DNA of 30,779 bases, taken from a virus. The position numbers and the translations under genes are program-made. A model generated the notes under the pieces. The model was not told where the DNA came from and did not search any database. It was given only the letters and a program-made list of their open reading frames with translations. Numbering within the stretch: the first letter of the stretch is position 1; each line of letters starts with the position of its first letter. Below are positions 8,406-29,169 of this stretch, in pieces. The stretch covers positions 1 through 30,779 of the IMG/VR virus record IMGVR_UViG_3300035670_000931, one strand, 5' to 3'.

Positions 8406-11400
8406 TCAGCCCCCGGAGCCGCCACCGGATCCACGTCCTGCGGTCGCAGGACCGCCGGAGCCAACTACAAATCTATTACGTCCGGTGCGTGCTCTATCAA
8501 TCAATACATTTTCTAGGTCACGTGCATCAATACTTACATTGAATGTTACTTCTATAGAGAAGTTTCTATTGTTTATAGTTAATTCTCCATTATTAACTCC
8601 AAGAACATTTCCAAGACGTTGCAAGCCGGTATTAATGTTGATTGGATCCAAATTTAATAGTTCTGAATTGATATCATTTACTTTTCCAACTAATTCTTGA
8701 ATAGTGTTTGCAATCCCAGTAATTTTGTCAGTTACTCCATTGGCATTAAAACTATCAGAATTGACAGTTCCAAGTATAGTAGATACAACAGATAAGGTTT
8801 CCGGAATTCTCTGCATTCTTTCAACTAAAGTTTTTGTAAACGAAGATAAGTTAGCCTGGAATTCTCTGCTTCCAACTAATCCTCCTAATTCGGTTACTAT
8901 TGCATCAATAACTGTTCTAGTATCACGCAACATATCATTAATATTTCGTGGAGAAGCAATTCCTCTAGCACTTTGCCCTCCTCGGCCCATAAGAGAGTCT
9001 AATCCTGTTCTAAAATCTGGAGTATTAATTGCAGTAATCAATCCCAGAATATCTACAACAGCTTTTGCTTTTTCACCAATACCACGTGGTAAGTTACCAA
9101 TACCAGATGTTAATAATGATTGAACTATACTTTTAATTAAGCCACCGCTCTCTGGATTAAAGAAAGTTGTTATGACTTGTTCTAATGAGCCTAATAACGA
9201 AGTTATAGATGCTGGATCAAAAAGTCTTAATGTATCTTCAGTAGCTTCTGTTCCCTCACTTAAAGCCCTTCGAACTTCTACTGTTCCAATTTCTTTAATA
9301 GCAGTTAATAATCCAACTACGCCATTTATTACAGATACAACTGTTTCTGCTCCTTTGGCAACACGATTTACTTCTATTGTTGTTAAACCAGAAGTAGCGT
9401 TTGACATTGCTTGGAATATTGGACCAATGCTGGTTCGCATGGAAGTAAATATTGTTTCGAGACTACTAGCCAAATTTGTCGGCAAAGAGGTAGCTACACG
9501 TTCAGCAGCAGCAATTCCTTCACGTGATGTTCCATTGGCTATAGCTTCAACAACAGATGAATCAACTTTTAAATTTTGCGTTAATGTTCCTATAAAACTA
9601 AGAACAGAACTTATAATAGAACCAAGTGCCCCAAGACCTTTTACTTGATCGGCGGATAAACCTCTCATATTAGCAGTTGATGTAGAAATCAAGGTTGATA
9701 TTGTATCAAAAATCCCACTACCTATAACGGCACTCAATATCCCTGTAATTCCACTAATTATAGCATCTAACTTTTTCGTTACTGGATCTGTTTTTGTTTG
9801 CAAATATAACATTCCAAGTGGACCCGAGGCTGCAAGAAATACATCTTGGAGTGCATTAGAAATCGAATCTATAACTCCAATCTCTGCAATATTAGCAACT
9901 GCCGCAAGTATACCAGCTACGCCTTCTAGAACTGCTCCAAATGCCTTAACAGGTTCGGCATTAAATTGACCGGATGGTATTGAGCCCAATTCTCTAACAA
10001 ATTCAGATATTACTTGTATTATATTATTATCACCGGTAAATATTCCCATCACGCTTTTCAGATATTGACTAACTGTAAATGCCATAGTAAATGGCATTAC
10101 GCTACCAATAAGTGCAATACCTGTCGGTGGTTGCATTGCTTCAATTAACGTTCCAACTGCTTCAATAATAGGACCAACAGCCTGTAACAATCCTAGCCTA
10201 TCCGGAGATAATGAGCCAATATTTGCAGTTATAGTTTGTATTAGTTCAGACATTAATGGACCTATTCGATCCATAATTTCAATTATTTGATCAAGTGGAC
10301 TATTAACGGAAGCTACTAAAGCTAATAGTCCACCAATAACAATACCAACTGGTCCTGTAGCCGCCAACATTAATGGCAATATCATAGTTAATGATGATGC
10401 CAAAATCATATCAACAAATACACCCATAAAATTAGCTAAGGCATCGACTACATTTACGAATGCAGTTAATTTTGCTTCTAGTCCAGCATCAATATTTGGA
10501 ACGTTTGTATTAATGTCATTAATAATCGATTTCATTCCAGTCGATATTCCGCCAACTATAGAAGCGAGTGCTCCGAATCCTAATATTATAAGAGGTGCTG
10601 CTAATGACAAAACACCCGCAATAAGAGCAGCGGGCATTAATGCCGACGCACCAAGCAATAATACTTCACCAGCAGCCATAGCTTTAACTGCTTTGTCAAT
10701 ATCTTCTATTTTTACATCATTAAATTCTGATATGATGTGTTTCATTAAGAATGCTACGCCGGCTACTAAGGAACCCATTACTACTAGTCCAGCTCCAGCT
10801 ACTAAGGCACCCACAAAGGCAGTACTGGATATCTCAGCTCCCACAACACCCATCACATGAGCTAATCCAACCATTCCCAATAGAAGTAATTCACCAGCAG
10901 CCATGGCGGCAACGGTAACACCAACTTGAGCCAGGGTAAATCCTCCGAGCAATGCAATAGCTGCTGTCATCATTAGAGCTATAACGGGAATCAACAAAGT
11001 CAAAGCAGCAAATATAGGTAAGGAAGACAAAAGACCTGGTACACCACCAGCGGCGGCCGCCCCAGCTTGAGCAGCCGAGGTTGTTGTAGTTGTAACTGTT
11101 GTTAAACCTCCAGAAGCACTAATGGTTTGCACAACGGTTTGAACTGCTTGTTGACCAGCAGTTCTTACAGCACTTGAAGCAAATCCTCTAGTAATACCAT
11201 CAACGGCGGCTTTGGTTATTCCGCTTGCAAGCCCGGCAGCTAAACCGCCGAACGCTGATCTTAATATGGCAGGACCAAACAAGAATCCCCATATCATCAA
11301 CTTATTTTGTTCATACCATTCAGAAACTTTATTAAAAGCAATTGAGAAAAGTTCTTTAATTGCTTCCCATAGAGGAGGCCACGCCTGTTTAATTGTTTCC

Positions 11401-13397
11401 CACAAACCAGACAAAATTTCCATCATTTGTCCGAGTATTCCAGAAGTATCAATAGGAATTCCTATATCACCTTTTAAGAATCCATTAATAGTTGTAATGA
11501 CGGTAGTAAGGGCGCTAAATACAATTGGTATAAAAGCTTTTAAGCCGCCAACTATAGCTTTCAATATAGTAGTAAAGAAAGTTTTAAACCCTTCTATAGT
11601 TTTTCTACCCGCTCCAGTACTCGCATCAAAATGATCAAAAAAGGCTTTTTTCAACCTATCAAATAGATTTTTAAGACCGGCTTCTGGATTTGTTTGCAAG
11701 TCTTTAAAGAAGTCTTTAAATGCATCAACAACTTTTCTTAATGTAGCTTTCCATCGAGTCGGACTAAATAAATCTGCTAATCCACCAAGAATATTTTTAA
11801 CTCCTGGGAACATTTCTATAAATGCCCTTCCAACCTCCCTACCGGCGTACCTAGTGCTTCTCAGCATTTGCCTAATATTCCTCATTATTTGCCTGAATTC
11901 CCTACTTCGGAATATTGCTTGCTGGAATCCTTCTACGAACGCTCCAAATAATGTTTTCGCACCTCCTCCACCGCTTTTAACTAAGCGTTCTATAGAGCCT
12001 GCCAATTTTTGCATTGCTTCAGCTTGAGTCAGTTGTTTTTTCTCAGCTTCTCCTGCTTTTTTCTTAATTTGATCTAAACTTACACCTCGATTATTTTGTG
12101 CAAAGGCTAGAGCTGCTTCTTCTTGGGTAAGACCGGCTTGTGTAGCCAAATATGCCTGCGAGCGTCTGTCTAAGCCTTCAAATGTTCTACCGGTTTTTTC
12201 AAATTGTTGCCTTAAATACTCTAACCTATCGGCAGGATTCTCCGTTTTCAGCATCCTCATTGTATCAATTTGTATGCCGAATTGTTGATTTAATCTTGCA
12301 GCAGCTTCTGCGGCTGAATCTAGATTATCCCATTGATCCATTATTCCGGTAAGGGCTTTTACTTCAAGACCAAGCTTCTTAGCATATACAGCCGTTTCAC
12401 CAAGTTCTTTCCTGGTTAGTCCACCGAAATGCTTCATATCGGTTTCCATTTCGGCCATATCTCTAGAGATTTCCATAGCATTCATACCGAATGCCTCTCC
12501 AAGTTGAATGGCATAATTGCTCATTTCACGTAGAGATTCATCAATTGTAGTGCCCGATATTAGAGCCGTCCTTGCTATGGTTTTCATCTGTTCGTTAGAC
12601 AGACCCAAACCTTTCTGGAAAGCTCCTATTGCTTCCGCACTTTGTATCATGCCTCTTTGCACAACATTTATTAGCAACGGTCCTAAAGCTTTAGCCAATT
12701 CAGTAAAATATTTTAATCTTTCAGCAAGATTACCAAACGTTCTATATACAGAAAGACCAGTAGCACCAAGCGTTCCGGTCATGCTCTTAGCCATGCTAAT
12801 AATAGCCTTAGAAGAACTTCTTTCTAAGTCACCAAATTCTTTACGTATTGCCTCCAAAGCTTCTCGTAGTCCGCTCCCACCACCACCAGAAGTTGCTTTT
12901 TCAAATAAGAAATTCCATATATTCAGAGGAAACCTCAACACAGCCATGGCAAATTGTCCCACTCTACTAATAGCTGTGCCTAATACACTAACAATGCTAG
13001 TTAATACGTTAAAGCTCAATTGAAAGCCTTTAACAGCGCCTTCATAAGCGGCGGTGGCGGTAACAAATTTTTGAGTTTTCTCTGCGGCATCTTCGATTGC
13101 ATTAGCTACAGATTCCGTATTGCCTCTAGCTTCAGACATTGCTCTAGAAGCTTCATTTCCAGCTTTTTGACCAGAGGTGCCCATTTTTTTAAGAGCTTCG
13201 TCGGCAGCATTAATCTGGTCATTAATATTTTTCATGCTGTCATTAAATTTTGAAACATCAACCTCGCCCATAGCTTCGGCCATAGCTTGCATGACTGCAA
13301 GTTGTCCTCTTTGTATCTTTGCCTGATTGAGATATAGCTGATTTTGTTCAGCCAACATCTTATTCAATTGAGCAGTTATTTCAATATTTGTTGCCAT
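8406..13397 (-). CDS. Tail tape measure protein
   Basis: This 1663-residue protein sets tail length and fills the tail tube before injection. It begins with a helical, coiled-coil-rich region (residues 1-120), followed by long stretches of alternating helices and strongly hydrophobic segments, especially about 790-970 (for example LLIPVIALMMTAAIALLGG), where membrane-spanning helices are likely. A 'MAAGE[L/V]LLLG' motif occurs twice there, near residues 831 and 905. The C-terminus ends in a glycine-rich tail. Size, composition and position after tube and chaperone genes and before hub genes all fit. T4 gp29 is about 590 residues, so a considerably longer tail is expected. No good Shine-Dalgarno sequence precedes ATG 13397, but a CATAAATA element resembling the T4 late promoter TATAAATA lies 14 bases upstream. 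Confidence 0.9.
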   Translation of the reverse strand: MATNIEITAQLNKMLAEQNQLYLNQAKIQRGQLAVMQAMAEAMGEVDVSKFNDSMKNINDQINAADEALKKMGTSGQKAGNEASRAMSEARGNTESVANAIEDAAEKTQKFVTATAAYEGAVKGFQLSFNVLTSIVSVLGTAISRVGQFAMAVLRFPLNIWNFLFEKATSGGGGSGLREALEAIRKEFGDLERSSSKAIISMAKSMTGTLGATGLSVYRTFGNLAERLKYFTELAKALGPLLINVVQRGMIQSAEAIGAFQKGLGLSNEQMKTIARTALISGTTIDESLREMSNYAIQLGEAFGMNAMEISRDMAEMETDMKHFGGLTRKELGETAVYAKKLGLEVKALTGIMDQWDNLDSAAEAAARLNQQFGIQIDTMRMLKTENPADRLEYLRQQFEKTGRTFEGLDRRSQAYLATQAGLTQEEAALAFAQNNRGVSLDQIKKKAGEAEKKQLTQAEAMQKLAGSIERLVKSGGGGAKTLFGAFVEGFQQAIFRSREFRQIMRNIRQMLRSTRYAGREVGRAFIEMFPGVKNILGGLADLFSPTRWKATLRKVVDAFKDFFKDLQTNPEAGLKNLFDRLKKAFFDHFDASTGAGRKTIEGFKTFFTTILKAIVGGLKAFIPIVFSALTTVITTINGFLKGDIGIPIDTSGILGQMMEILSGLWETIKQAWPPLWEAIKELFSIAFNKVSEWYEQNKLMIWGFLFGPAILRSAFGGLAAGLASGITKAAVDGITRGFASSAVRTAGQQAVQTVVQTISASGGLTTVTTTTTSAAQAGAAAAGGVPGLLSSLPIFAALTLLIPVIALMMTAAIALLGGFTLAQVGVTVAAMAAGELLLLGMVGLAHVMGVVGAEISSTAFVGALVAGAGLVVMGSLVAGVAFLMKHIISEFNDVKIEDIDKAVKAMAAGEVLLLGASALMPAALIAGVLSLAAPLIILGFGALASIVGGISTGMKSIINDINTNVPNIDAGLEAKLTAFVNVVDALANFMGVFVDMILASSLTMILPLMLAATGPVGIVIGGLLALVASVNSPLDQIIEIMDRIGPLMSELIQTITANIGSLSPDRLGLLQAVGPIIEAVGTLIEAMQPPTGIALIGSVMPFTMAFTVSQYLKSVMGIFTGDNNIIQVISEFVRELGSIPSGQFNAEPVKAFGAVLEGVAGILAAVANIAEIGVIDSISNALQDVFLAASGPLGMLYLQTKTDPVTKKLDAIISGITGILSAVIGSGIFDTISTLISTSTANMRGLSADQVKGLGALGSIISSVLSFIGTLTQNLKVDSSVVEAIANGTSREGIAAAERVATSLPTNLASSLETIFTSMRTSIGPIFQAMSNATSGLTTIEVNRVAKGAETVVSVINGVVGLLTAIKEIGTVEVRRALSEGTEATEDTLRLFDPASITSLLGSLEQVITTFFNPESGGLIKSIVQSLLTSGIGNLPRGIGEKAKAVVDILGLITAINTPDFRTGLDSLMGRGGQSARGIASPRNINDMLRDTRTVIDAIVTELGGLVGSREFQANLSSFTKTLVERMQRIPETLSVVSTILGTVNSDSFNANGVTDKITGIANTIQELVGKVNDINSELLNLDPININTGLQRLGNVLGVNNGELTINNRNFSIEVTFNVSIDARDLENVLIDRARTGRNRFVVGSGGPATAGRGSGGGSGG

Positions 13398-13483: not shown

Positions 13484-13843
13484 ATGTCAAAGACAAGACC
13501 TTCTAATGCATTAAATGAAGTAAGATTAACTTGGGCTGGTAAATTATTGTTTGCAACAGTTGCTGCTCGTCTTGCAGCGGCAGGTTTAAGAAAAATAGCT
13601 TCTGGTATGAGTGAACAATCAGAACCAGAAGAAGAAAAAATGATGGCAAGTTTTCCATTTAAGCTTCAAGGAACTCCAGAGCAAATGCAAGCAATGAAAG
13701 ATGTAATTGTAGCATCCAAAGAATATCAAGAAGAAATTGGTAAAGAAGGTGCTACAGTTGAATCTGTTATGCAAAAACTTAATGCTCAAAATGAAGCTAA
13801 AAAAGCTTTCCAAGATAAAACCGGTTATGCTTGGCCACTCTGA
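13484..13843 (+). CDS. Unidentified small protein, first gene of reverse cassette
   Basis: This 119-residue protein of unknown function is encoded on the strand opposite to the tail genes. A GAGGAA Shine-Dalgarno sequence lies 6 bases before ATG 13484. The N-terminal third is basic with a moderately hydrophobic, alanine-rich helix (residues 17-37, LTWAGKLLFATVAARLAAAGL). The remainder is acidic and helical, with many Glu, Lys and Gln residues and three Met residues around 'PEQMQAMKDV'. It ends in GYAWPL. There is no recognised domain. It is followed after 12 bases by the next cassette gene, so the two are probably one operon. Confidence 0.75.
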   Translation: MSKTRPSNALNEVRLTWAGKLLFATVAARLAAAGLRKIASGMSEQSEPEEEKMMASFPFKLQGTPEQMQAMKDVIVASKEYQEEIGKEGATVESVMQKLNAQNEAKKAFQDKTGYAWPL

Positions 13844-13855
13844 TTGGAAACACCT

Positions 13856-14431
13856 ATGAACAAATTAAACACTTTATTATCATATCTTCTAAATGAAGGA
13901 AAAATGTCAGATTTCAGCGGTGGTCGCTCAGTCAGCGACAAAGTTGCTGAACTTTTCTTTGATGATGGACTTGATACAATCAATTATGTGCTTGCCGCCG
14001 TAGAAGATGGAGATCAGTCTGATGTCATCAGTAGCGTTGAACAAGCATATGAAGAATTTCTCTTACGTTATCATGATGATGAGCCAGAAATTCAATTAAC
14101 AGAAATGAGCGATGATTTAAAAAGTCTTGCTATCGAAGAGATCGCAAGAAGATTAATGGATCCAGCTCTTAATGAATCTGTTGAAGAAGAAAAAGGTTAT
14201 AGCGGTCCAAAGAAATATAAAAAGGTAGTTGGTTCTGGTAAAAAGAAAAGAACCGTTCGTTATGGTGCTAAAGGTTATTCTATAGCCCCAGGAACTTCAA
14301 AAGGAAACAGCTACTGTGCTCGTTCTTATGGCCAAATGAAAGATCATCCTTCAGCCGCCCGTGATCCTAATAGTCCCCTCAGACTATCACGTAAGAAATG
14401 GCGTTGCAGCGGCAAATATTCAAAAAAATGA
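13856..14431 (+). CDS. Basic protein with conserved SYCARS/LSRKKW domain and leader-like N-terminus
   Basis: This 191-residue protein has three parts. The first 14 residues (MNKLNTLLSYLLNE) resemble the amphipathic leader ending in L-x-E seen on three other proteins in this window. Residues about 17-110 are acidic and helical. The C-terminal 80 residues are basic and contain GYSIAPGTSKGNSYCARS and LSRKKWRCSGK, a pattern I recognise from many large phage proteins of unknown function; its two Cys and basic residues suggest nucleic-acid or metal binding. I prefer ATG 13856 over TTG 13844 because TTG directly follows the previous stop and lacks a ribosome site. The stop overlaps the start of the Nudix gene (ATGA), suggesting coupling. 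If the leader is cleaved, the mature protein would be carried in the head. Confidence 0.75.
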   Translation: MNKLNTLLSYLLNEGKMSDFSGGRSVSDKVAELFFDDGLDTINYVLAAVEDGDQSDVISSVEQAYEEFLLRYHDDEPEIQLTEMSDDLKSLAIEEIARRLMDPALNESVEEEKGYSGPKKYKKVVGSGKKKRTVRYGAKGYSIAPGTSKGNSYCARSYGQMKDHPSAARDPNSPLRLSRKKWRCSGKYSKK

Positions 14432-14973
14432 AAAAGATAAAAGAAATACGCCGCACCTATATTCATCAACCAACCGGCTATAAGAAGAAAGTAATAGAAA
14501 AAACTTTCTTATTGCCAAATGGTCGTTCATGGACTTCTTTTATTGATAGAGTAGATGATAGCGTTAATATCTTTCCTATGACAGATGATGGTCAGGTAGT
14601 GCTCGTAAAACAGTTTAGACCGGGCTCAGAGCGTGTTGAGTTTGAACTACCTGGTGGTATGATAGACCCTGGAGAAAAGGCTTCTAGAGCCGCTGAGAGA
14701 GAGCTACTAGAGGAAACCGGATACGAGGGCAACTTAGAGTTCATATCAAGTCGCAGCTATTCTCCATATTCATCTGGTATGCGCCATATCTTTGTAGCTA
14801 CCGGCTGTAAGAAAATATCAGAAGAACAGGATTTAGATCCGGACGAGTTTTTAGATATTGCTGTAGTTCAAATGGAAGACCTCGAAAATCTTTTATATGA
14901 AGGCAAAATAAGAAACCCAGACGGTGCCTACATGGCATTGCATCATCTGGGTATTCTTAATATTCGTTTTTAA
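14428..14973 (+). CDS. Nudix hydrolase, ADP-ribose pyrophosphatase-like
   Basis: This is a 181-residue cytoplasmic enzyme of the Nudix family, which cleaves nucleoside diphosphates linked to another group. The full Nudix box G-x5-E-x7-R-E-U-x-E-E-x-G-U is present at residues 77-99, with G77, E83, R91, E92, E95, E96 and G98 in place. The upstream part (SFIDRVDDSV, VVLVKQFRPGSERVEFELPGG) matches the ADP-ribose/ADP-sugar pyrophosphatase group better than MutT. ATG 14428 overlaps the preceding stop as ATGA and is preferred over the in-frame ATG 14398, which lies inside the preceding gene. It ends only 4 bases from the convergent tail gene. A role in altering host NAD or ADP-ribose metabolism is possible but inferred; the exact substrate cannot be read from sequence. 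Confidence 0.9.
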   Translation: MKKIKEIRRTYIHQPTGYKKKVIEKTFLLPNGRSWTSFIDRVDDSVNIFPMTDDGQVVLVKQFRPGSERVEFELPGGMIDPGEKASRAAERELLEETGYEGNLEFISSRSYSPYSSGMRHIFVATGCKKISEEQDLDPDEFLDIAVVQMEDLENLLYEGKIRNPDGAYMALHHLGILNIRF

Positions 14974-14977
14974 TTGA

Positions 14978-15316
14978 TCAAGTAAAGCGTTGAAGCTTCG
15001 AAGGCGTTTGGGATCTAACTTTACCAGTTAATGATCTTACGTCCGGGGTATTGTGATGCATTCCTTTGCTTGGAATGTCATTATTATTTTCATGAGCCTT
15101 ACTGATCTCCTTCTCTATTCTTTTTATTAGCCACTTTTTATACATGATTGGGAACTTCATATAAGTTCCCCAATCCATGCCGAAATAATATCCTAATAAG
15201 AAAAATGGTTCAAGGAGAACCGGTTCTCTATCGTTTGAAGTTAGGCCAAAAAAAGGTCGCCCCCATGGGTAGGGACATCTCCTCAAAATGGTCACAGTTC
15301 TTGCATTTAAAATCAA
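14978..15316 (-). CDS. Tail assembly chaperone distal part, probably made by frameshift from the gp26-like gene
   Basis: This reading frame continues from inside the 3' end of the gp26-like gene, in the +1 frame relative to it. The conserved-looking part is REPVLLEPFFLLGYYFG, PIMYKKWLIKRIEKEI, a pattern common in small proteins encoded beside gp26-like genes in large myophages; T4 gp51, which follows gp26, is a possible analogue. The only upstream starts are a TTG at 15316 and a GTG, both within gp26 coding sequence. The first ATG comes after the conserved motif has begun, and no ribosome site serves it. A T7 run at 15254-15248 lets ribosomes pass from gp26 codon F289 into this frame, giving an 89-residue extension and a fusion of about 378 residues. 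The frameshift is inferred. Confidence 0.65.
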   Translation of the reverse strand: MILNARTVTILRRCPYPWGRPFFGLTSNDREPVLLEPFFLLGYYFGMDWGTYMKFPIMYKKWLIKRIEKEISKAHENNNDIPSKGMHHNTPDVRSLTGKVRSQTPSKLQRFT

Positions 15317-16115
15317 TCTTCATATTAACGCCGGGTTCATGTTCATCAATATAATCACGAAGAACAAGCGAGTCACGAGCCGGCATATATTGAACGAAAC
15401 GAGATACTAAGCTCTTATTCTCATTTCCATCAATCGCAACAATAGAGCGAAGCAATCTTCCAGTTACAAGATTCGAATTGAGCAATCCCTTCTTCTTTCT
15501 TGTCTCCATATCGGCAACAATCTCTTCTTCTTCTTTGCCATTAAGAAACTTGAAGGTGATCATCTTTTTAGAAACAGGCAATTTAAAATTAAATGCATTT
15601 GCATTTGGAGATACCGGCTCTATAGTTAATGGCTTAATTGGAAGTTCATTTAAATCGATCTCTAGTTCATTCTTAAACTCACAATTAGGGCATTGATATG
15701 TTGGTTCATATATGTTGCCATAACCAGAAGCACGAATTGCAATCATGAGAGCATTTCTATCTCCGGATAGTAAGCTTTGAACTTCAATATCTTTATTAAC
15801 CAAACATGATTTAATAAGCTCTGTTATAACCGTACCACGTTTAATGAGAGCCTGAGACATAAGAATGTCTTCTTCTCTTGCTGTCATAGCACGATATTCA
15901 ACAGATTCGGCATTACATAATGCATGACCCATAGGATATACTTTACCTTTTGATGGTAATGGAACAGCATCGATAGGAATCTCTACTCCCAATTCTTGTT
16001 TGGCATATTGTTGTGCAGTTATTGGCTGCCCCTCTCCAACTGCACCAGGATTTTGAGCTGCCATTTGAGCAGCTAACATCGCATTTCTTAATTCTCTATT
16101 ATCATTTTCTGACAT
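15228..16115 (-). CDS. gp26-like baseplate hub/tail assembly protein with zinc ribbon
   Basis: This 295-residue protein belongs to the T4 gp26-type baseplate family. Recognisable parts are 'IPLPSKGKVYP'-like residues 47-62 (here VPLPSKGKVYP), 'YRAMTAREEDIL' at 74-85, and two Cys pairs, C142/C145 (QCPNCEF) and C271/C274 (FKCKNCDHF), that can form a zinc ribbon. T4 gp26 is an assembly factor for the hub and is not abundant in finished virions. A strong Shine-Dalgarno sequence (GGAGGAAG) lies just upstream of ATG 16115, and a possible promoter precedes it. The stop codon lies 18 bases beyond a T7 run that opens the +1 frame. Position between tube and tape measure matches tail assembly chaperones of other phages. 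Confidence 0.82.
   Translation of the reverse strand: MSENDNRELRNAMLAAQMAAQNPGAVGEGQPITAQQYAKQELGVEIPIDAVPLPSKGKVYPMGHALCNAESVEYRAMTAREEDILMSQALIKRGTVITELIKSCLVNKDIEVQSLLSGDRNALMIAIRASGYGNIYEPTYQCPNCEFKNELEIDLNELPIKPLTIEPVSPNANAFNFKLPVSKKMITFKFLNGKEEEEIVADMETRKKKGLLNSNLVTGRLLRSIVAIDGNENKSLVSRFVQYMPARDSLVLRDYIDEHEPGVNMKIDFKCKNCDHFEEMSLPMGATFFWPNFKR
15246..15254 (-). other. Candidate programmed frameshift site (T7 run)
   Basis: On the minus strand, gp26-like codons read ACC TTT TTT TGG. After the second TTT a +1 shift still pairs tRNA-Phe with TTT and continues as GGC CTA ACT into the downstream open frame; a -2 slip reaches the same frame. Reading on without a shift ends six codons later at TAG 15230. 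A self-complementary GAGAACCGGTTCTC lies 19 bases downstream and could stall ribosomes. This is a candidate, not a proven site. Confidence 0.55.
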
Positions 16116-16188: not shown

Positions 16189-16524
16189 TCAAATTTCTCT
16201 TATTACATGAACAATATATTCTTTTAATTGCCCAACATTAAGAACTTGATGATAATAATCCTTTGTCTTTTGCCGTTCTTCATCATTAGTTAGCTTCGCA
16301 TCTAAGAAGATATCGATAACCATATCGGGGACCGGTCTATAACCCTTTTTACGGCTCTCTAACTGCTTTAACCTCTGTAGGTAGCTCCAAGTTTTCATGG
16401 GCTCAAAATCCTTTTTAGAGGCTTTTATAATAAGCTTTGTAATCTTCTGAGCGTCTGCAAATAACTGAGGATATCCTTTACGAATACGCTCATATTGCTC
16501 TAATGATTTTTCTACTTGATCCAT
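16189..16524 (-). CDS. Small helical tail-module protein, unidentified
   Basis: This 111-residue protein (MDQVEKSLEQYERIRKGYPQ...) is predicted to be mainly alpha-helical and highly charged, with no Cys, no signal peptide and no membrane segment. It lies between the tube gene and the gp26-like gene, a place usually held by tail assembly factors, so it may be another chaperone. ATG 16524 follows only 10 bases after the hairpin-plus-T-run terminator of the tube gene and has no clear Shine-Dalgarno sequence, so expression presumably depends on read-through and should be low. I do not recognise the family. Confidence 0.7.
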   Translation of the reverse strand: MDQVEKSLEQYERIRKGYPQLFADAQKITKLIIKASKKDFEPMKTWSYLQRLKQLESRKKGYRPVPDMVIDIFLDAKLTNDEERQKTKDYYHQVLNVGQLKEYIVHVIREI

Positions 16525-16592: not shown

Positions 16593-17081
16593 TCAGAACT
16601 GAAGAACGCAATTATCGAAGCGAATTGTTAGCTGAATATCTGCTAGGTCGTTACCATCATAAGCCATATCGCCAAAGTTAGCAGACTTGCACCATGCACC
16701 CTTAATGTCCCAAAGTTGAACTACTGTTCCAACTGGATCTAACATCTTGATTTGAATGTCACGCTTGTAGAAATCAGAGTAACCTGCACGACCAGAAACG
16801 CTTTCAAAGCAGAGACGAACCCATTCCATGACCTGTTGAGCACCTGACGGAGCAATTGGATCATAAAGAGTAACGTTCATTTCGCCCCATGTTCCCTTGC
16901 CGGCAATGTAGCGGGTGCTATTGATCCATGGAATAGCTGTCTCTTCAAATGTCATTTGAGGGCGAGCAGCAGACTTAACAAGGAAGGAGTCAATACCTTC
17001 AATAGCGAAGACGAACCGATGTTTTTTAAGCGGTTCAAACTTTGTTGGTAACATATCTGTTACTGATAGTGTTTCGGCCAT
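16593..17081 (-). CDS. Tail tube protein (T4 gp19-like)
   Basis: This 162-residue protein forms the inner tail tube; T4 gp19 has 163 residues. Typical features are the N-terminal 'LKKHRFVFAIEGIDSFLVKSAARPQMTFEE' strand region, 'WGEMNVTLYDPIAPSGAQQVMEW', and the C-terminal beta-rich 'IKGAWCKSANFGDMAYDGNDLADIQLTIRFDNC' segment. An AAGGG ribosome site precedes ATG 17081. It follows the sheath genes and the small dockerin-like gene and ends just before an intrinsic terminator, as expected for a protein needed in many copies. Confidence 0.92.
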   Translation of the reverse strand: MAETLSVTDMLPTKFEPLKKHRFVFAIEGIDSFLVKSAARPQMTFEETAIPWINSTRYIAGKGTWGEMNVTLYDPIAPSGAQQVMEWVRLCFESVSGRAGYSDFYKRDIQIKMLDPVGTVVQLWDIKGAWCKSANFGDMAYDGNDLADIQLTIRFDNCVLQF

Positions 17082-17667: not shown

Positions 17668-20600
17668 TCATCCTTGTCCAAAGTTGCTTGGATTGTTGAT
17701 TACGAAGTCCACAGAAAGGAACTCGAGGGTGCGGGTTGGTTGTAAGTAAATCTTACCACGGATTGTCTTGTTCTCAAAGTCCGCTTGAGTTGTTGTGCTT
17801 GTATCGATACGGACAAGGAAGCGATCAACACCCTTTTGATCCTGAACACGCTTAAGGATTGGATTAACAAGCTGAGAAAAGCGTGCAAGTGTCTCTGGAA
17901 GTGTTTGTTCAAAGAGGATGCGATTTGCAACTTGACGAACTTGACGACGAACAGAGAGAAGAAGACGACGAACGTTTACACGATCAAGAGCAGACTGTTG
18001 TGCATACATTGTCTTCTGACCCCAGATTATTAATCCTTCGGATCCGGCAAAAGATACGATTGGATTGATATCGACTTCATATAGATCATCCATATTTGTT
18101 CTAGAAAGTTGAACTGTAGAACGTTCAGTTGTCTCTAGGGCACCTCTTGCAAAGCCGGCTGGAGCAAACCATGGGAATGCTACAGAGTCATTATAAGAGA
18201 AGGCTCCGAGAACTGGAACTGAAGCTGGAACTTGACGTAATCTATTAGCTACATCATCACGCATAATCATATCTGGGAAATATGTTGCTCCAAAAGAGTT
18301 GTTAATATTTCTATCACGGAAGTTATTGACTGTGTAACGAACAGATGGGATTTGTGCTGAACTTGTTAACAAGTTTCCATCAGTATCAAATACTTCTAGA
18401 TCCATGATATAGATTGCATCAAATCTATTTTGAGCAACTTCAAGAGCCTTATCTGTAATGGCTGGATTACGGATACCTGGGATTGCAAAGAGTTGAACGT
18501 CAACTTCAGTTGCATCTGCCATTAAGCTAAGTGCCTTGTTATAAGCAACTACAGCAGAACCGGTTTGTTCGCCACGGCTTGTGAAATCAAGTTCTTCATT
18601 TACAGCTTGATTGGTTAACCAACGTTCGTTATAATTGAAGATATTAACACCATCAAAACCGCCTTGAAGATATACGTTAAACTTAGCAAGTTGACGAGTT
18701 GATGGATCTGCCAAATCTGCTACAGATAATCCTCTTGTTTGAACGGTTGGGCTCGTATCAACAGTTATTTGACCATCTCTTACATATTCCCAATCTATAA
18801 GACTATTAACGTCTGGCAATGTGTTATTTGGGAACAATGCTGTGCTGCCAGGCAATACACGATATACTACCTGAATATTCTCGAGAGAGAATGCATTCTT
18901 ATTAAATCTGTCGGCATCCAATATACCGTTTTGTGTGGTGTCTAGAACTCCCTCATTATCCATAACTACAAAGTTTTGCCATCCATTTTGGAAATTTGGG
19001 AAATAAGAAGCAAAGCTTTCAACGGTTGTTTCACGAAGAGTTGTTTTGTTAGGTTCTAGAGCAGATATTTTGCGTTCAAATTGAACGCCCCAATATAGTC
19101 CCTTGTCAGCCGTTTGATTTGGTGCAAGACCACGAATAAGATTTTGACGGAATGGAACCGGAATCTGAACTGTATTCCGGAATGGATTTGCTACTGTATA
19201 TCCAGTTGGATCAACTGCACTAAATGGAGCAAGAGGAGATGAACCTGATGTTACTAAATGAGCAGGACCACGGAAACCTACCGGTAGAGCTGTTGGGTCA
19301 ACATCGGCGGCGTCTACTGCATCAGCTACTTCTATACGGATGTATTTGGAGTTATTCGGATATGTTCCTAATGTTATTAATTTTGTAGCACCATCTTCTG
19401 CATCAAAGTTATAGAATGTATTATAATCACCAATAACACGTGCAATGTAATTTGGTGAAGATGGATCTAGCGTCAAACCACGGAACGCCTCCAGAACAAC
19501 TTTATTCTTGTCGTTATCTGCAAAATCTCTTACAAGAAGATCGAAACGCCCATAGAGATAAACATCAGAAAGACTTGGCGTGATATTCTCTAGAGAAATT
19601 TTAACTTTATTATTTGCATATACGCCATCATCTAGAGAGTGAATCCGGAAAAGATTAACTGGCTTGCCGCCGAACTTTTGAGAAGTAATCCATGGGCTCT
19701 TTGGCGTGCGGTAACGATCTTCGAAGTTCTCATAGTTAGGAGCAGTTGTAGAGCCGCTATTTCTAGCTTGAGAACCTGTAATAAGGAATGCTACGTTTTC
19801 ATATCCAGCAGCTCTTAAAGTGAGAACTTCTGTAGAACCAGAAATTACAGAAGAACCGGTTGGAACAGCAAACGTTGGATGAATAACCCAATCTGTTTGC
19901 AAGAGATATCCAGCTTGTTCAAGCTTAAGTGGATCTCTGTTGAAGATAAGTCCGAAATAGTTTGGAGCTTCTATGTCGAAGGATGCAGTTACTACGCTTG
20001 GATACATTGGATCTGTGTTTGTAAGACCGTTAATTAACATAACGAATTCTTGCAAACTGCCATTAAGATTTACAGAGCCCGTGACTCCGCCGCCAGGAGT
20101 TGCTGTGCTTGGATCCGCAGCATTTGCCGGCGCAAAAGCGGAAGATAATGTAAGCAACGTTCCAGAAGCAGCAAACAAAACGCCACGAATAACTGGGACG
20201 CCGCTGGCTGGAAGACCAGCTTCTGTAAAGATAGAAGAACTTACTATCTCTGAACCAGAAGTTTCATACTGACTCATGAAAGCGCCAAGGAAGTATGTTC
20301 TTCCAAGTTCATTTCCTGCTGTTGCAAATTCAGAATCTCCTAATTCACCAGCATAACCGCCCCAATATTGTGGAATCTGTCCGCCTACTACGAATCCGGC
20401 ACCTTCTACTTTTCCTATATTGCCACCAGCGGCATCAGCATCTACTGTTCTTTTGCTGCCGCCACCGGCACCTAATACTCTAATAAACGTGGCGGCTTGA
20501 GCGTTTCTTAACCACTCAGATACAGCTAACGGACCCACATATACATCATTAGATGTTTCTCCAAACGTTGCTTGGAAATCGTTATATGTGGCTACTGTCG

Positions 20601-20736
20601 TTGGAACAAATGCTGGACCTGCAATTGCAGTACCTATGACGCCCGCAGGGATTCCAGATGGCTGGATTGCTGTAGGACCAGTTAGGTTTATTGTTCTTGC
20701 TGATACGCCTGCTGATTTAAATGATATCTGAGTCAT
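17668..20736 (-). CDS. Tail sheath protein, second copy
   Basis: This 1022-residue protein is a contractile tail sheath subunit. The N-terminus 'GIPAGVIGTAIAGPAFVPTTVATYNDFQATFG' followed by 'AATFIRVLGAG' is the typical sheath start. The C-terminal 130 residues (VNVRRLLLSVRRQVRQVANR, LVNPILKRVQDQKGV, GKIYLQPTRTLEFLSVDFVI) match the conserved sheath C-domain that bears the interlocking arms. The central region is extended with Ser/Gly-rich segments; T4 gp18 has 659 residues. It is a clear paralogue of the gene immediately upstream, separated by 49 bases that hold an AAGG ribosome site. The next gene starts 6 bases after its stop. Conservation of both termini suggests it is functional rather than a decaying copy. 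Confidence 0.93.
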   Translation of the reverse strand: MTQISFKSAGVSARTINLTGPTAIQPSGIPAGVIGTAIAGPAFVPTTVATYNDFQATFGETSNDVYVGPLAVSEWLRNAQAATFIRVLGAGGGSKRTVDADAAGGNIGKVEGAGFVVGGQIPQYWGGYAGELGDSEFATAGNELGRTYFLGAFMSQYETSGSEIVSSSIFTEAGLPASGVPVIRGVLFAASGTLLTLSSAFAPANAADPSTATPGGGVTGSVNLNGSLQEFVMLINGLTNTDPMYPSVVTASFDIEAPNYFGLIFNRDPLKLEQAGYLLQTDWVIHPTFAVPTGSSVISGSTEVLTLRAAGYENVAFLITGSQARNSGSTTAPNYENFEDRYRTPKSPWITSQKFGGKPVNLFRIHSLDDGVYANNKVKISLENITPSLSDVYLYGRFDLLVRDFADNDKNKVVLEAFRGLTLDPSSPNYIARVIGDYNTFYNFDAEDGATKLITLGTYPNNSKYIRIEVADAVDAADVDPTALPVGFRGPAHLVTSGSSPLAPFSAVDPTGYTVANPFRNTVQIPVPFRQNLIRGLAPNQTADKGLYWGVQFERKISALEPNKTTLRETTVESFASYFPNFQNGWQNFVVMDNEGVLDTTQNGILDADRFNKNAFSLENIQVVYRVLPGSTALFPNNTLPDVNSLIDWEYVRDGQITVDTSPTVQTRGLSVADLADPSTRQLAKFNVYLQGGFDGVNIFNYNERWLTNQAVNEELDFTSRGEQTGSAVVAYNKALSLMADATEVDVQLFAIPGIRNPAITDKALEVAQNRFDAIYIMDLEVFDTDGNLLTSSAQIPSVRYTVNNFRDRNINNSFGATYFPDMIMRDDVANRLRQVPASVPVLGAFSYNDSVAFPWFAPAGFARGALETTERSTVQLSRTNMDDLYEVDINPIVSFAGSEGLIIWGQKTMYAQQSALDRVNVRRLLLSVRRQVRQVANRILFEQTLPETLARFSQLVNPILKRVQDQKGVDRFLVRIDTSTTTQADFENKTIRGKIYLQPTRTLEFLSVDFVINNPSNFGQG

Positions 20737-20785: not shown

Positions 20786-23700
20786 TCAACCGAATTGAAC
20801 GCCTTCTCTCGTGATTATGAAGTCGATTGCAATGAATTCTACTGCCTTAACTGGAAGCAAGTAAATCTTAGCATTCATTCTATTATTTTCACGATCTAAG
20901 GCTGTATTGTTTGTTTCGTCACAGACAACCTTATATTGTCTTAAACCACCACGATTTTGGACCAATGATAGGATTGGAGAAACTTTAGCAACAAACTCTT
21001 GATAAAGAGACGGTGTAAGTTGTTGCCAGATTAATCTGTTGCCAACGTCTATTACTTGACGTTGAACGTCCATGATCATGCGTTGAACATTGATGCTATC
21101 TAGAGATGTTTGAGCACCATCAAGTGTCTTTTGTGCAAAGATTACGTAACCCTCATTTGGGAACTTGACGATTGGATTTACTCTTACAGCATATAACTTC
21201 TCACGTTCATTTTGATTTACTCTTGTTCTTGTAAGAGATACGAAGTTAAGTGCTGCACGATTAAACCCGGCTGGTGCGAACCAGGGGTAGGAAACCTTGT
21301 CATTATAACCTAAAGCAGCTAGAGAAGCTACAGTAGCCGGAACAGTTACTTTCTTTCCAGTAGATGGATCATTCATAACTACATCTGGGAAATAAGCTGC
21401 TATAAATGTATTATCGAGAGAACGTGCATCAAATGCATCAGCCGTTTGTTGAACATCAATATAAGAGCCCGTTCCAGATGTTTGTCCGTCAAATATTCTA
21501 TCTCCGGCTGAGTTATAGTTTGGAACGTCCATCATATAGAGAGCTAAACCATAACTAGATACTGCATCAGATGCATAGTCAGTTACAAACGGTTCACGTT
21601 GACCCGGGATTGCCAGTAGATTGATATTGGAAGCGATCGGATCTGTGATTATATTTGCTGCAACACGATAAGAGTTGATTTGATTATTTTCGATACCTAC
21701 ACCATTTTGATTGAAACTAAATCCTGGAGATACAAAACCTGACCATGAACCACCATCGGTTTCACCTGATGTTGATTTATCATCAAATCTTACAGCATGT
21801 TTATCTAGAATATTGACGCCATCAAATCCACCATACAATACTGTTGTAAACTTAGCGTAGTTATTGTATTTGTTAAACGTTATCGGCTGAGTTCCTTCAT
21901 GCACTAGTGTTGCAAACGTTACATCTCCATTTACGGTATATGTTGTTGGGTCAACAACGCCATTACGAACATATATAGCCTTTCTCATTTGAGATGCTAC
22001 AGTTCCAGTAAGTCCGCCAATTGTGCTTACGCCATTAACTGTAACACGTGCTAATGTAAACTTGTTGTTATTAAAGGAGTCTTTGAAAGAGCCAGTAACT
22101 AATACGTCAAGTTTTTCTACGCCAGCAAACTTTGTGGCAGAAGCAATGTATCTATTAATCTCATTATTAATGTTAACGTTTTCGACGTTATTGTTATTAC
22201 GTTCAAACTTAACACCCCAATAGAAGCGGCTATCAGCTATTTCTAGAGAGCCACTATTTCTTGTGGACTTATAACGGAATGGCATTGGAGGAACAATCGC
22301 TCCTTCACAACCAAACGTACTAGCAGATCCGCTGCCAGCAAGACGAAGTTCACCGGAAGAACCGCTTATGTCTGTTAATACAGGATTTGTATTAAGAGCA
22401 TCAACACCATGGAAACCAAATGGCAAACAAGTTGCTGGAACCATCTTTTGTTCTACCATATCGTTCATTACAACACGAATGTAATTTGATTTATTGGGGT
22501 ATTTACCGCTTCTAACAATTCTTCGGTCGCCTGGATCTTCAACATCGAAGTTATAATAAGCTTTTGCATCGCCAATTACTTTAGCAATATACTTTTCACT
22601 ATCCGGATTAAGACTAAGATCAGTAAACTGTTCAATTATTTCCGGATTTATGTCGTTATCATCAAATCTTCTAACAAGAAGAGAGAACGTTCCATATGGA
22701 TAGACTGGATTTGTTGAAGCTTGAAGATTTGCGATAGATATTTTGATCTTATCATTTGCATATCGACCATCATCAATCGATTCAACATGGAACAAATCAT
22801 ATTCTGTTACGCCATATGGCTGAGAAATAAACCCTGGTGATCTTGGAGTAGTGAAACGTGTATCATAACGTCCAAACAACTCAAGGAATTCTGTTGTTGG
22901 CAAACCGGAGTTGGCAGCAACGTTATCACTACCAGAGGCAATAAGAACACCGGATACTGTATTTTGAACTACAGTAGCAACTTCATCATCAACTGCATAA
23001 TCTAGATACAAATAATGTTGTTCCTCTTCAAATTTGGAAGGATCTGTATTGAGAAGCTTGGCAAAATATAAATCAGATGTTGGATTAAATGATGCAGAGA
23101 ATATTCTTACGCCAGTAAAACCATCGTCTACTCCATATGAGGCACCAAGAGATGTTGAAATTGCAATTTTGAAATAAGGTTCTTCTGAGCCGGCAGGAGT
23201 TGAATACACGGCTGTATCATCCATTAGTGAAGAAAATGATTCATTAGAACCAGACATAATCATAACTCTGGATCCGGATGCTGCAAATATTATACCACGG
23301 ACAAGATTTGCAAAGCCAGGATCCCCTGTGAAGCTATCATTGTCTGTAAAAATTGGAAATCCGGAAGGAGCACTTTCTCCGGGCTGTAATTCGTGACGTG
23401 CAACTAAAAACTGCACAGCACCTAGAGCTCTCGAACCTGCCCCGGCTGTAGTCCAATTAGAAGAACCTGATACTTTAAATCCCGCATTTTTGACAATTCC
23501 GGCAGTTTGTGTTGCGGTAATATCGGCTAAACTTGTATTTGCGCCTGCACCAAGAACTCTTACGAATGTTAAAGCAGAACGATTTTGCAAAAACTTTTCA
23601 ACAGCATATGGAGCTGGAATGCTTGGATCAAAACCACCAAACTTCGTATTGAAATCTGAAAAAGAACCTAAAGTATATGGAATAAATGCTGGTCCCTTTA

Positions 23701-23809
23701 TTGCTGCACCGATTACGCCACCTGGAATACCTGTAGGTAACACAACTCTAGCGGTTAGATCGATTTCACGATCATAAAAGCCTGGGAATTTAAAAATTTG
23801 ATCTGCCAT
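20786..23809 (-). CDS. Tail sheath protein, first copy
   Basis: This 1007-residue sheath subunit has the same layout as its neighbour: N-terminal PGFYDREIDL, 'GIPGGVIGAAIKGPAFIPYT', 'ALTFVRVLGAGANTS', central extension with many Ser/Gly/Asp residues, and the conserved C-domain (INVQRMIMDVQRQVIDVGNR, KVSPILSLVQNRGG, AKIYLLPVKAVEFIAIDFII). AAAGGA 10 bases before ATG 23809 is a good ribosome site. A 6-base stem hairpin lies just upstream. Sheath monomers polymerise around the gp19-like tube and contract on infection. The two copies differ throughout, so the duplication is old. They may be alternative subunits or may alternate in one sheath. Confidence 0.93.
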   Translation of the reverse strand: MADQIFKFPGFYDREIDLTARVVLPTGIPGGVIGAAIKGPAFIPYTLGSFSDFNTKFGGFDPSIPAPYAVEKFLQNRSALTFVRVLGAGANTSLADITATQTAGIVKNAGFKVSGSSNWTTAGAGSRALGAVQFLVARHELQPGESAPSGFPIFTDNDSFTGDPGFANLVRGIIFAASGSRVMIMSGSNESFSSLMDDTAVYSTPAGSEEPYFKIAISTSLGASYGVDDGFTGVRIFSASFNPTSDLYFAKLLNTDPSKFEEEQHYLYLDYAVDDEVATVVQNTVSGVLIASGSDNVAANSGLPTTEFLELFGRYDTRFTTPRSPGFISQPYGVTEYDLFHVESIDDGRYANDKIKISIANLQASTNPVYPYGTFSLLVRRFDDNDINPEIIEQFTDLSLNPDSEKYIAKVIGDAKAYYNFDVEDPGDRRIVRSGKYPNKSNYIRVVMNDMVEQKMVPATCLPFGFHGVDALNTNPVLTDISGSSGELRLAGSGSASTFGCEGAIVPPMPFRYKSTRNSGSLEIADSRFYWGVKFERNNNNVENVNINNEINRYIASATKFAGVEKLDVLVTGSFKDSFNNNKFTLARVTVNGVSTIGGLTGTVASQMRKAIYVRNGVVDPTTYTVNGDVTFATLVHEGTQPITFNKYNNYAKFTTVLYGGFDGVNILDKHAVRFDDKSTSGETDGGSWSGFVSPGFSFNQNGVGIENNQINSYRVAANIITDPIASNINLLAIPGQREPFVTDYASDAVSSYGLALYMMDVPNYNSAGDRIFDGQTSGTGSYIDVQQTADAFDARSLDNTFIAAYFPDVVMNDPSTGKKVTVPATVASLAALGYNDKVSYPWFAPAGFNRAALNFVSLTRTRVNQNEREKLYAVRVNPIVKFPNEGYVIFAQKTLDGAQTSLDSINVQRMIMDVQRQVIDVGNRLIWQQLTPSLYQEFVAKVSPILSLVQNRGGLRQYKVVCDETNNTALDRENNRMNAKIYLLPVKAVEFIAIDFIITREGVQFG

Positions 23810-25869: not shown

Positions 25870-26532
25870 TTAACCTACTACTTTCCAGCCAAACAAACTA
25901 TTACGTTTGCCATTTGCCAATTGGTTAAAAGAAGAAGGATTTAAATTATGAAGCTCGGCAAATTCTGTTAAATTAGTAATATTATCAAATATCTCACCAG
26001 ATGGTGAAACTATACTCCATGTTTTTTTCAATGATTGAGGACGAATTGATTTACCGTTTTTTAAACGCCAACCTTTATAAGTTTTTAATTTTCCATTAAT
26101 TAGAGAACTTAAATGTTCTTTGCGTAATCTATGTTTTCTGGCAAAATCGCACAAACCGGCAGCCAAAAAATATTCTGTGCCGTATTTGTCAATTAGACTA
26201 ACATTAAACGTTTTTTTAGGTGGACTTTCTCTGCCAATTTCTTTGCAAACGTTATAACAATGATTACCGTTATCCCAAAGAACGTTAACATATTTTTGTT
26301 CTATATTTTTTAACTCTGATTCATCACAATATTCAATAACAAAAAATTTAAAAACAGAAGGCATTTTATTATAAGCAGCTTGTAATTTGGGATTTGCGTG
26401 AGTTCCATTTTTAAGACAATAAAAATGTTGACTTTTTCTACGATTTAAATCATTGCTACTTCCAATATAAACGTTTCCGTTTTTTGTATTGACAATTTGA
26501 TAAATTCCAACTTGTGTTTGCAACGTCGTCAT
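25870..26532 (-). CDS. GIY-YIG homing endonuclease
   Basis: This 220-residue free-standing endonuclease makes site-specific DNA breaks that spread its own gene. The catalytic domain has G9-I-Y11, Y22-I-G24, R31/R32 and the metal-binding E78 (NIEQKY). The C-terminal half has two modular DNA-binding repeats of NUMOD type at about 121-157 and 182-220, each ending in 'NGK...GW[R/K]'. ATG 26532 has no Shine-Dalgarno sequence; an AT-rich leader and a GGCTT/AAGCC hairpin lie upstream, suggesting low or controlled translation. It sits between the 395-residue gene and the gp14-like gene and directly adjoins the latter, so it has probably inserted there. The flanks carry an 8-base inverted repeat (25861-25868 and 26579-26586). 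Confidence 0.93.
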   Translation of the reverse strand: MTTLQTQVGIYQIVNTKNGNVYIGSSNDLNRRKSQHFYCLKNGTHANPKLQAAYNKMPSVFKFFVIEYCDESELKNIEQKYVNVLWDNGNHCYNVCKEIGRESPPKKTFNVSLIDKYGTEYFLAAGLCDFARKHRLRKEHLSSLINGKLKTYKGWRLKNGKSIRPQSLKKTWSIVSPSGEIFDNITNLTEFAELHNLNPSSFNQLANGKRNSLFGWKVVG

Positions 26533-26607: not shown

Positions 26608-27795
26608 TCATTTATTATATCTCTCTCTTGCTGCTGCCAGTTCTCCAGGACCGACTTGCTTTCTTTGTTTACCATATGGCTCTCGTTCACCTCGGGGTTG
26701 AGCATTTCGGGCAGCGACCATATAACGTTGCACTAAATTATTATAGATTTCAAACAATCTTGTTAATGAACTTTCAACTTCTGGTGTGTCAAAACGATGC
26801 TTAAATTGATCAAGTGGCATGTTAGTTAATCCCACAGATCGTGAATATCCTGCCATTATTTTTTCTACAATTATTTTTATATTGGGTATTTTTTTTCCTT
26901 TTGTCACATAATCGGCTAAGAAATCACTCATTCTATTACCGAGTTCTTCTTCATCTTCAGATGATTGTTTGTAGGCAATCTCTGGTTCTTGGCTGGTATC
27001 AAATCCAAGTGGTCTATAGCTATACGTAGTCGCATCTTTAAAGTTCGGTTCTTGATTGTTTTCAGGACGCCGAGCCCAATATCTTCTTGCAATATGCCCC
27101 GGAGCAAACTTATCAGATGGCATTATAGAAAAATATATCTGGTTGGCTATCTTTTCTTTATCGGCTATCCGTATATCACCCATTTTATTTTCAAATTGAT
27201 CTAAAAACCAATATCGGAACTCCCTATCATCTCGGAGTTCAAAAGGCTTTTCAAAAACTTCATTTGGAAGTAAAAAGCCAAATTCTTGTTTAAATGCATT
27301 ATTGACCTTATCTCGCATCTTCTTATCAATAACAATTTTATTGAAACGTGAAGGAGTGATATCGTATTTTTTGCTTTTAAGAACACTTTCACGGCGTCTA
27401 CCAAAGGCTTTGGCTATATAACCGGTGAATGCGTGCATGAGATCATGGCTTTCATCTCCGGCACTCATAACGGGCATTGGAATAGTTGGATCTAAGTAAA
27501 GTTTAAAGCTATTCCCGCTATATTGAAATGACATACCTTTTTTTTGTTCGGTTGGGGTTGTCATTGGTGCCCAATTTTCTCCACGACCACCACCTCGTCC
27601 TCCAAGTCCACGACGTGCATCTATGATATCAATAGGTGAGGCACCCGGCAAGGCTTCGCCTTCATATATTAACTTATTGATTGCTTGAGCAAAAGCATAC
27701 ACTCCGACCATAGATGGAGACAAACGAGACATATCAATGTCTTCTGTCATTTCTTCTTTAATGATTAGTCGGATATATTCTTTTAATAGGTTCAT
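26608..27795 (-). CDS. Paralogue 2: unknown protein with cleavable-leader-like N-terminus and HDxxH motif
   Basis: This 395-residue protein is a tandem paralogue of the gene upstream. Residues 1-14 (MNLLKEYIRLIIKE) form an amphipathic leader ending in I-K-E, like T4 capsid-targeting peptides cut by the prohead protease after [L/I]-x-E. Both paralogues then share 'YAFAQAINKLIYEG', 'ALPG-x-x-PIDII', 'FKLYLDP' and a segment 'SAGDESHDLMHAFTG' followed by AK and RRRES, with H117, D118 and H121 as possible metal ligands. Shared C-terminal parts are 'DTPEVESSLTRLFEIYN' and 'QRYMVAARNAQP'. Its ATG overlaps the previous stop as ATGA. I do not recognise the family. If the leader is real the protein is packaged in the head. 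Confidence 0.8.
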   Translation of the reverse strand: MNLLKEYIRLIIKEEMTEDIDMSRLSPSMVGVYAFAQAINKLIYEGEALPGASPIDIIDARRGLGGRGGGRGENWAPMTTPTEQKKGMSFQYSGNSFKLYLDPTIPMPVMSAGDESHDLMHAFTGYIAKAFGRRRESVLKSKKYDITPSRFNKIVIDKKMRDKVNNAFKQEFGFLLPNEVFEKPFELRDDREFRYWFLDQFENKMGDIRIADKEKIANQIYFSIMPSDKFAPGHIARRYWARRPENNQEPNFKDATTYSYRPLGFDTSQEPEIAYKQSSEDEEELGNRMSDFLADYVTKGKKIPNIKIIVEKIMAGYSRSVGLTNMPLDQFKHRFDTPEVESSLTRLFEIYNNLVQRYMVAARNAQPRGEREPYGKQRKQVGPGELAAARERYNK

Positions 27796-29105: not shown

Positions 29106-29169
29106 ATGTCTTCTTTTTTTTCTAATTGGTAGCGTTCCATTTATCAAACAATAGAGGGGACGTTTTGAC

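Follow-up and report, generated by a model that had tools for sequence, protein, structure and literature searches.

How is a reading frame that overlaps the 3' end of a gene, and that has no ATG to start from, brought to translation? The question is raised by a locus on the minus strand of a viral contig of 30,779 nucleotides (IMG/VR record IMGVR_UViG_3300035670_000931, positions 1 to 30,779, analysed at its full length and referred to here as the window), in which a gene for a protein resembling gp26 of phage T4 ends shortly after a run of seven T and a second frame reads on beyond it. With a probability of roughly 0.88, and drawing on comparative sequence data, we suggest that both frames would be read from one start and that +1 ribosomal frameshifting, from YUU to UUU, would generate a short (G) and a long (GT) tail assembly chaperone.

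The gp26-like gene (15228..16115, minus strand) would encode the short form, a protein of 295 residues including the C-terminal FFWPNFKR, which matches PF12322 (E=3e-20; 73.3 bits against a curated cut-off of 24.5, profile positions 10-219 of 219) and phrog_150 (E=7e-23). On the minus strand its 3' end reads ACC TTT TTT TGG CCT AAC TTC AAA CGA TAG; six sense codons lie between TTT TTT and the TAG stop (15228..15230), confirming on this strand the initial annotation of a gp26-like gene that ends six codons after a T7 run (15254-15248, the last T of which is the first base of TGG). Within the putative shift site TTT TTT TGG CCT (15243..15254, minus strand) the P-site TTT is at 15251-15249 and the A-site TGG at 15248-15246. 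The downstream frame, referred to as the T part (14978..15247, minus strand; GLTSNDREPVLLEPFFLLGYY...QRFT), is in the +1 frame (equal to -2) relative to the gp26-like frame, begins with GGC at 15247 and extends for 89 codons to a stop at 14980-14978. As had been described, no ATG precedes its motif, and the only start listed for it is a TTG at 15316, deep within the gp26-like gene. The predicted long form (14978..16115, minus strand) would have 289 + 89 = 378 residues and the junction ...GATFF-GLTSNDR.

The locus is part of a tail operon on the minus strand, and its surroundings are those of a tail chaperone gene. The gene for the tail tube protein is the upstream neighbour and was identified by HMM (16593..17081, minus strand; PF06841, E=7.6e-8; phrog_4542, E=1e-29), and in Flavobacterium phage immuto the tape measure gene is annotated directly after the T part, without intervening plus-strand ORFs. 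The window's own probable tape measure protein, encoded by an ORF of 1663 codons downstream on the same strand (8406..13397, minus strand), is assigned by length, position and composition, and an HMM search with this ORF gave no match to any tape measure family. From the protein family and this place in the gene order we infer a chaperone role in this phage. Three plus-strand ORFs at 13484-14973 separate the T part from the tape measure gene in the window, one of them coding for a NUDIX protein (PF00293, E=1.1e-18), and an ORF of 111 residues without convincing family match lies between the tube and gp26-like genes (16189-16524, minus strand). Elsewhere on the minus strand, tandem large ORFs of 1022 and 1007 residues that resemble each other occupy the position of tail sheath genes (17668-20736 and 20786-23809), an ORF with a GIY-YIG-like start (GIYQIVNTKNGNVYIGSS; 25870-26532) is by eye a possible homing endonuclease amid the tail genes, and two adjacent, paralogue-like ORFs both start MNLLKEYI-x-LIIKE (26608-27795 and 27792-29147).

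Several lines of data bear on whether the T part is made as a protein. An open frame of 89 codons has a chance probability of about 0.002 under the base composition of the window. The T part is conserved across 22 loci at 53-100% identity, its pairwise substitutions are distributed 340/254/971 by codon position and the median dN/dS is about 0.12; it is a real protein under purifying selection, with the core F-x-L-x-Y-Y-G-x-G-x-S-x-x-E-x-YN-L-P-V-x-L-R. In family-profile searches the T part of the window had no convincing database match of its own, and tblastn against annotated phages gave no match; the T part is short and diverged, and profiles are needed. At the level of profiles, the T parts of the +1 type match those of the relatives with a -1 shift discussed below (E=7e-10), and by this comparison the two are homologous.

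Related loci were taken from two viral-contig scans (62), from a gp26 alignment (80) and from genome collections (14) and, together with a few isolated phages, were reduced to 134 gp26 ends. The block [TTT/TTC][TTT/CTT] TGG CC[T/C] is present in 126 of these, and the gp26 stop follows 1-8 codons on, mostly 2-4. Isolated phages of the +1 type are immuto, which has TTT CTT TGG at the site and the record of which contains only a 36-codon fragment of the T part annotated as a hypothetical protein, and Microcystis phage Mel-JY01; Rhodothermus phage RM378 has TTT TTT TGG AAT with a +1 overlap. In 121 complete loci the +1 frame extends 54-105 codons beyond the end of gp26 (median 79), compared with a median of 11 codons for the -1 frame, lending support to the programmed frameshift by which the initial annotation had joined the two frames. 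When the run and the frame are aligned across homologues, as had been proposed, block and frame are kept in the related loci without a duplicated gene, with the exception of two in which the block has changed (L070 and L199). In these two +1-group loci the Trp codon is replaced, giving TTT TTT TTC CCT in L199 and TTT CTA TTC CCT in L070; the latter is without an obvious NUU U site, yet has retained the +1 overlap. A further +1-type gp26/T pair (L202) was found in a contig binned as a Woesearchaeota archaeon, which is most likely a misplaced viral contig.

Given that homopolymer runs are error-prone and that the window is a metagenome contig, the frame break might be ascribed to a sequencing or assembly error in what is truly one ORF, or to a decayed gene. 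However, the same break recurs in 126 distinct loci and in phages isolated by different groups (immuto, Mel-JY01, RM378 and SP-15), and the T part is under purifying selection; the error reading is already refuted by the relatives, and we assign it a negligible probability. Judged from these alignments, a fixed spot for probable forward slippage in more than 100 related viruses is real biology rather than sequencing error.

The codons at the site are strongly biased. Of the 126 distinct loci of the +1 type, 111 have TTT, 15 have CTT and none has TTC at the P site, and the A-site codon is UGG in all; in the same genes TTT accounts for 70% of Phe, CTT for 27% of Leu and CCT for 32% of Pro codons. 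With one sequence per 70%-identity cluster, and clusters treated as independent, the codons seen at the site would arise by chance with a probability of 1.7e-11 (Phe), 3.9e-4 (Leu, six cases) and 5.5e-33 (CCT). Conservation of CCT speaks for double coding, since it is also needed for Leu in the T frame. Third positions carry 0.02-0.15 bits of information from -22 to -10 and 1.65, 2.0 and 1.83 bits at -4, -1 and +5, respectively. When the overlaps of the two open frames are compared over 120 deduplicated loci, only -8 to +9 around TGG is common to all, which pins the shift to the conserved block. The conservation of the site, its frame and the position of the shift are established by these data. 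In 108 of 120 loci TTT TTT is preceded by C or G (background 33%; 1.9e-38), which excludes from the +1 group the -1 heptamer used by relatives. Downstream RNA structure at the shift site gave no signal in the related loci (median z -0.58).

The same protein could be generated one step earlier if RNA polymerase dropped one U (or added two) on the T7 run and the fused frame were then read normally. A run of exactly seven T is present in 97 of 120 loci including the window, and loss of one base from it would give the same FF-GL protein. In 21 of the 120 loci, however, the T runs are only 3-4 long (TTT CTT TGG or TTC TTT TGG) with overlap and frame unchanged, and the feature that is kept is NUU U, the re-pairing rule for a P-site tRNA, rather than the length of the run. 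NUU U is found at the P site in all 126 loci, so that the P-site tRNA can always re-pair on UUU, and, with CTT TGG in some of them, homopolymer slippage cannot be the mechanism in general. Transcriptional slippage is possible at the window's own T7 run; as an account of the locus we consider it unlikely and favor a ribosomal shift, the ribosomal nature and the rate of which we infer.

Alternatively, the T part could be translated separately by internal initiation or re-initiation. In its favor, most loci have a Shine-Dalgarno-like element ahead of the site, a potential start (TTG, GTG or ATG) occurs in the +1 frame of some, and public records of the -1 relatives annotate the T part as a gene of its own. 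Against this, 48 of 121 loci offer no ATG, GTG or TTG upstream of the T core in the +1 frame, the position of potential start codons is not conserved, and in three lineages (L020-L022, T4 gp51 and probably CP81, described below) a gp26 homologue bears the T part in frame at its C terminus. A frame that is startless in so many loci makes separate initiation of the T part very improbable. Two observations that the initial annotation had listed as speaking against a frameshift are, accordingly, not borne out: a second ORF with its own start is no general property of these loci, and no close homologue has lost both run and overlap without carrying the domain fused in frame.

The Shine-Dalgarno-like element is a puzzle of its own. 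In the window it reads GAGGAG and lies upstream of the shift site (15279..15284, minus strand). Of 120 loci, 89 have a GGAGG-like element 22-36 bases upstream of TGG, compared with 29.6 expected from synonymous reshuffling (500 shuffles, with a maximum of 43 loci with the element), and with one locus per 70% cluster the element is present in 53 of 74 compared with 17.4 expected; control windows elsewhere in the gene have little or no excess, the largest being 9 versus 3.8 at -72. By this reshuffling analysis the element is under selection beyond the protein sequence. A function as start signal for the T part was considered and rejected, as neither frame has a conserved start codon at an appropriate distance. 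The element is located about 20-26 bases before the P-site codon, and we know of no frameshift mechanism or stimulator that acts at a Shine-Dalgarno spacing of about 20-26 bases. Stimulation is known at spacings of 3 bases for +1 shifts and of 9-14 bases for -1 shifts (PMC5009743); the element is outside both, and another explanation is needed.

In the model that we favor, +1 frameshifting by the ribosome, most ribosomes would read FFWPNFKR and then stop, giving the short G form. In a minority, with the peptidyl-tRNA on UUU (or CUU) at the P site and the Trp codon UGG waiting at the A site, the P-site tRNA would let go and re-pair one base forward on UUU, and decoding would resume at GGC CUA to give the GT form of 378 residues. 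As UGG is a sense codon, this slippage may be rare. By analogy with lambda G/GT, the tape measure protein would be coated by many copies of G and few of GT, with tube subunits recruited through the T part.

Other members of the family shift in the opposite direction. In P-SSM2, Syn9, S-PM2, HTVC008M, DLP6, phiM12, KVP40 and phiW-14, gp26 ends at U UUU UUC or U UUU UUU, and a short 'gp51' (phrog_634) follows directly in the -1 frame at this heptamer. This cyanophage/KVP40-type 'gp51' is a T part after gp26 and homologous to that of the window, but it is in the -1 frame at U UUU UUY whereas the window uses +1. In the cyanophages, KVP40, phiM12, DLP6, HTVC008M and phiW-14 one PF12322 gene was found per genome. 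Most of the eight phages have a Shine-Dalgarno-like stretch about 10 bases before the heptamer, the spacing given for -1 sites in PMC5009743, and XacN1, RAS14, 121Q and PA5oct also have a -1 frame at T runs. Cyanophage gp51 has been described as lacking the first 200 residues (Sullivan et al. 2010, PMC3037559), which would be explained by gp51 being the T part in the -1 frame of gp26. A distant sister group of the +1 type is formed by SP-15, LIS04 and GXN1: among 35 relatives of their genes the homologous site is mostly TTT TTT CGT CCN or TTC TTT CGT, the A-site codons are CGU, AAU and others, and all complete cases inspected have the T part in the +1 frame. In this group tRNA-Phe would shift from UUU to UUC. 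For SP-15, LIS04 and GXN1 a distinct +1 site at NCC CGA was considered and dropped, as 25 more relatives have mostly TTT TTT CGT at the homologous site.

In at least three lineages the shift has been replaced by gene duplication, a finding that seems to be new. L020, L021 and L022 each have two copies of the gp26 gene. The end of copy 1 reads FFWP... and is encoded by TTC TTC TGG CCG or TTT TTC TGG CCA; with TTC at the P site the slip codon has been lost and the amino acids have been kept. Copy 2 has the T part in frame (FF-[S]-[L/I]), joined at the residue predicted for a +1 shift; after a -2 shift there would be one additional residue. In the family tree these duplicates lie inside the +1 clade and the T4 gp26/gp51 pair within the -1 clade. 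The third case, Campylobacter phage CP81, is on long branches, and its GT copy is probably a gp26 homologue that continues in frame into the T part. The predicted fold of a natural GT fusion (pLDDT 85.5) had as its only PDB match of sizeable probability the HK97 tail assembly chaperone 2ob9 (probability 0.60, TM 0.47 on target), which with E=0.94 proves nothing by itself; among predicted viral proteins the fold matches gp26-type baseplate hub proteins.

T4 gp26 and gp51 match PF12322 over the full length of the profile (8.8e-64 and 3.9e-52, respectively), and gp51 has about 48 residues more than gp26, which are matched by phrog_634 and the cyanophage T profile, so that gp26 corresponds to the G form and gp51 to the GT form. 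The two proteins have already been published as a G/GT pair (Vladimirov, Gautam and Davidson 2022, via PMC10885494 and PMC12846349). As related by the citing papers, the same work describes some T4-like phages with one short gene and one longer fusion gene (PMC10885494) and poly-T -1 signals in T4-like phages (PMC12846349). Our sequence searches agree with the published proposal and support it. The same equation in the initial annotation holds in so far as PF12322 is found in both proteins and the gp51 tail matches cyanophage 'gp51', but needs amending in that the downstream frame of the window is only the C-terminal T part whereas T4 gp51 is a whole G+T fusion. Genes 26 and 51, described there as separate and adjacent, are indeed neighbors but lie on opposite strands; where the window has a putative shift, T4 thus relies on two genes of the same protein family, one on each strand. 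A direct profile match of the window T group to T4 gp51 was not significant, and the link runs via the cyanophage T group; similarly, the profile of gp26 alignment A1 matched single T4 sequences weakly, and the link is the shared match to PF12322.

T4 has been described as an exception to the frameshift-made tail chaperone pairs of long-tailed phages (PMC5009743), and the relatives show how this exception fits the rule: the gp26 family mostly frameshifts, by +1 in one large branch and by -1 in another, and T4, CP81 and L020-L022 switched to duplication. Besides these replacements, the +1 class with its motif, its sister relation to the -1 sites of cyanophages and KVP40 and the Shine-Dalgarno-like element appear to be new. 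In many records the T part is either missing or entered as a small gene of its own, which could be corrected; in those of KVP40 (NC_005083), S-PM2 (NC_006820) and CP81 (NC_042112) the T part or GT copy is annotated as separate or hypothetical, with no joined or slippage feature. More tentatively, and with somewhat less confidence than doubt, we propose that a recoding cassette consisting of a +1 site (YUU UGG or UUU CGU), aided by a Shine-Dalgarno-like element about 20-26 bases off, may operate across widely different hosts, and that +1 shift, -1 shift and duplication may have been interchanged within the family. As a naturally occurring putative +1 site at a sense codon the cassette is well conserved, and its distant Shine-Dalgarno-like element poses a testable puzzle.

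A close counterpart of the site itself is that of bacterial prfB (RF2), where a +1 shift takes place at CUU UGA. In both, the P-site CUU or UUU re-pairs, or would re-pair, on UUU one base forward and the A-site codon begins with UG. Unlike prfB, the site described here has the sense codon UGG in the A site instead of the stop UGA and is without a Shine-Dalgarno sequence at 3 bases; also, one peptide is discarded in prfB, whereas both products of a tail chaperone locus are presumably useful. In arrangement, the locus resembles lambda G/GT, and Xu, Hendrix and Duda reportedly described in 2004 that the lambda chaperones and their relatives depend on a -1 frameshift. The likeness consists in a small gene between the tube and tape measure genes, a startless second ORF overlapping its 3' end, a conserved slip site and a short and a long product; in 126 loci such a startless frame would be joined to the first gene close to its 3' end, where the slip site is conserved. 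The direction differs, being +1 in all these loci compared with -1 in lambda and -2 in Mu, and the proteins of the window belong to PF12322. The archaeal myovirus HSTV-2, with a likely +1 shift in its G-T region (PMC5009743), also has this direction in a tail chaperone gene, but as a single case. As +1 and -2 forms have been reported elsewhere, we regard the locus in the window and its relatives as a variant of the G/GT locus.
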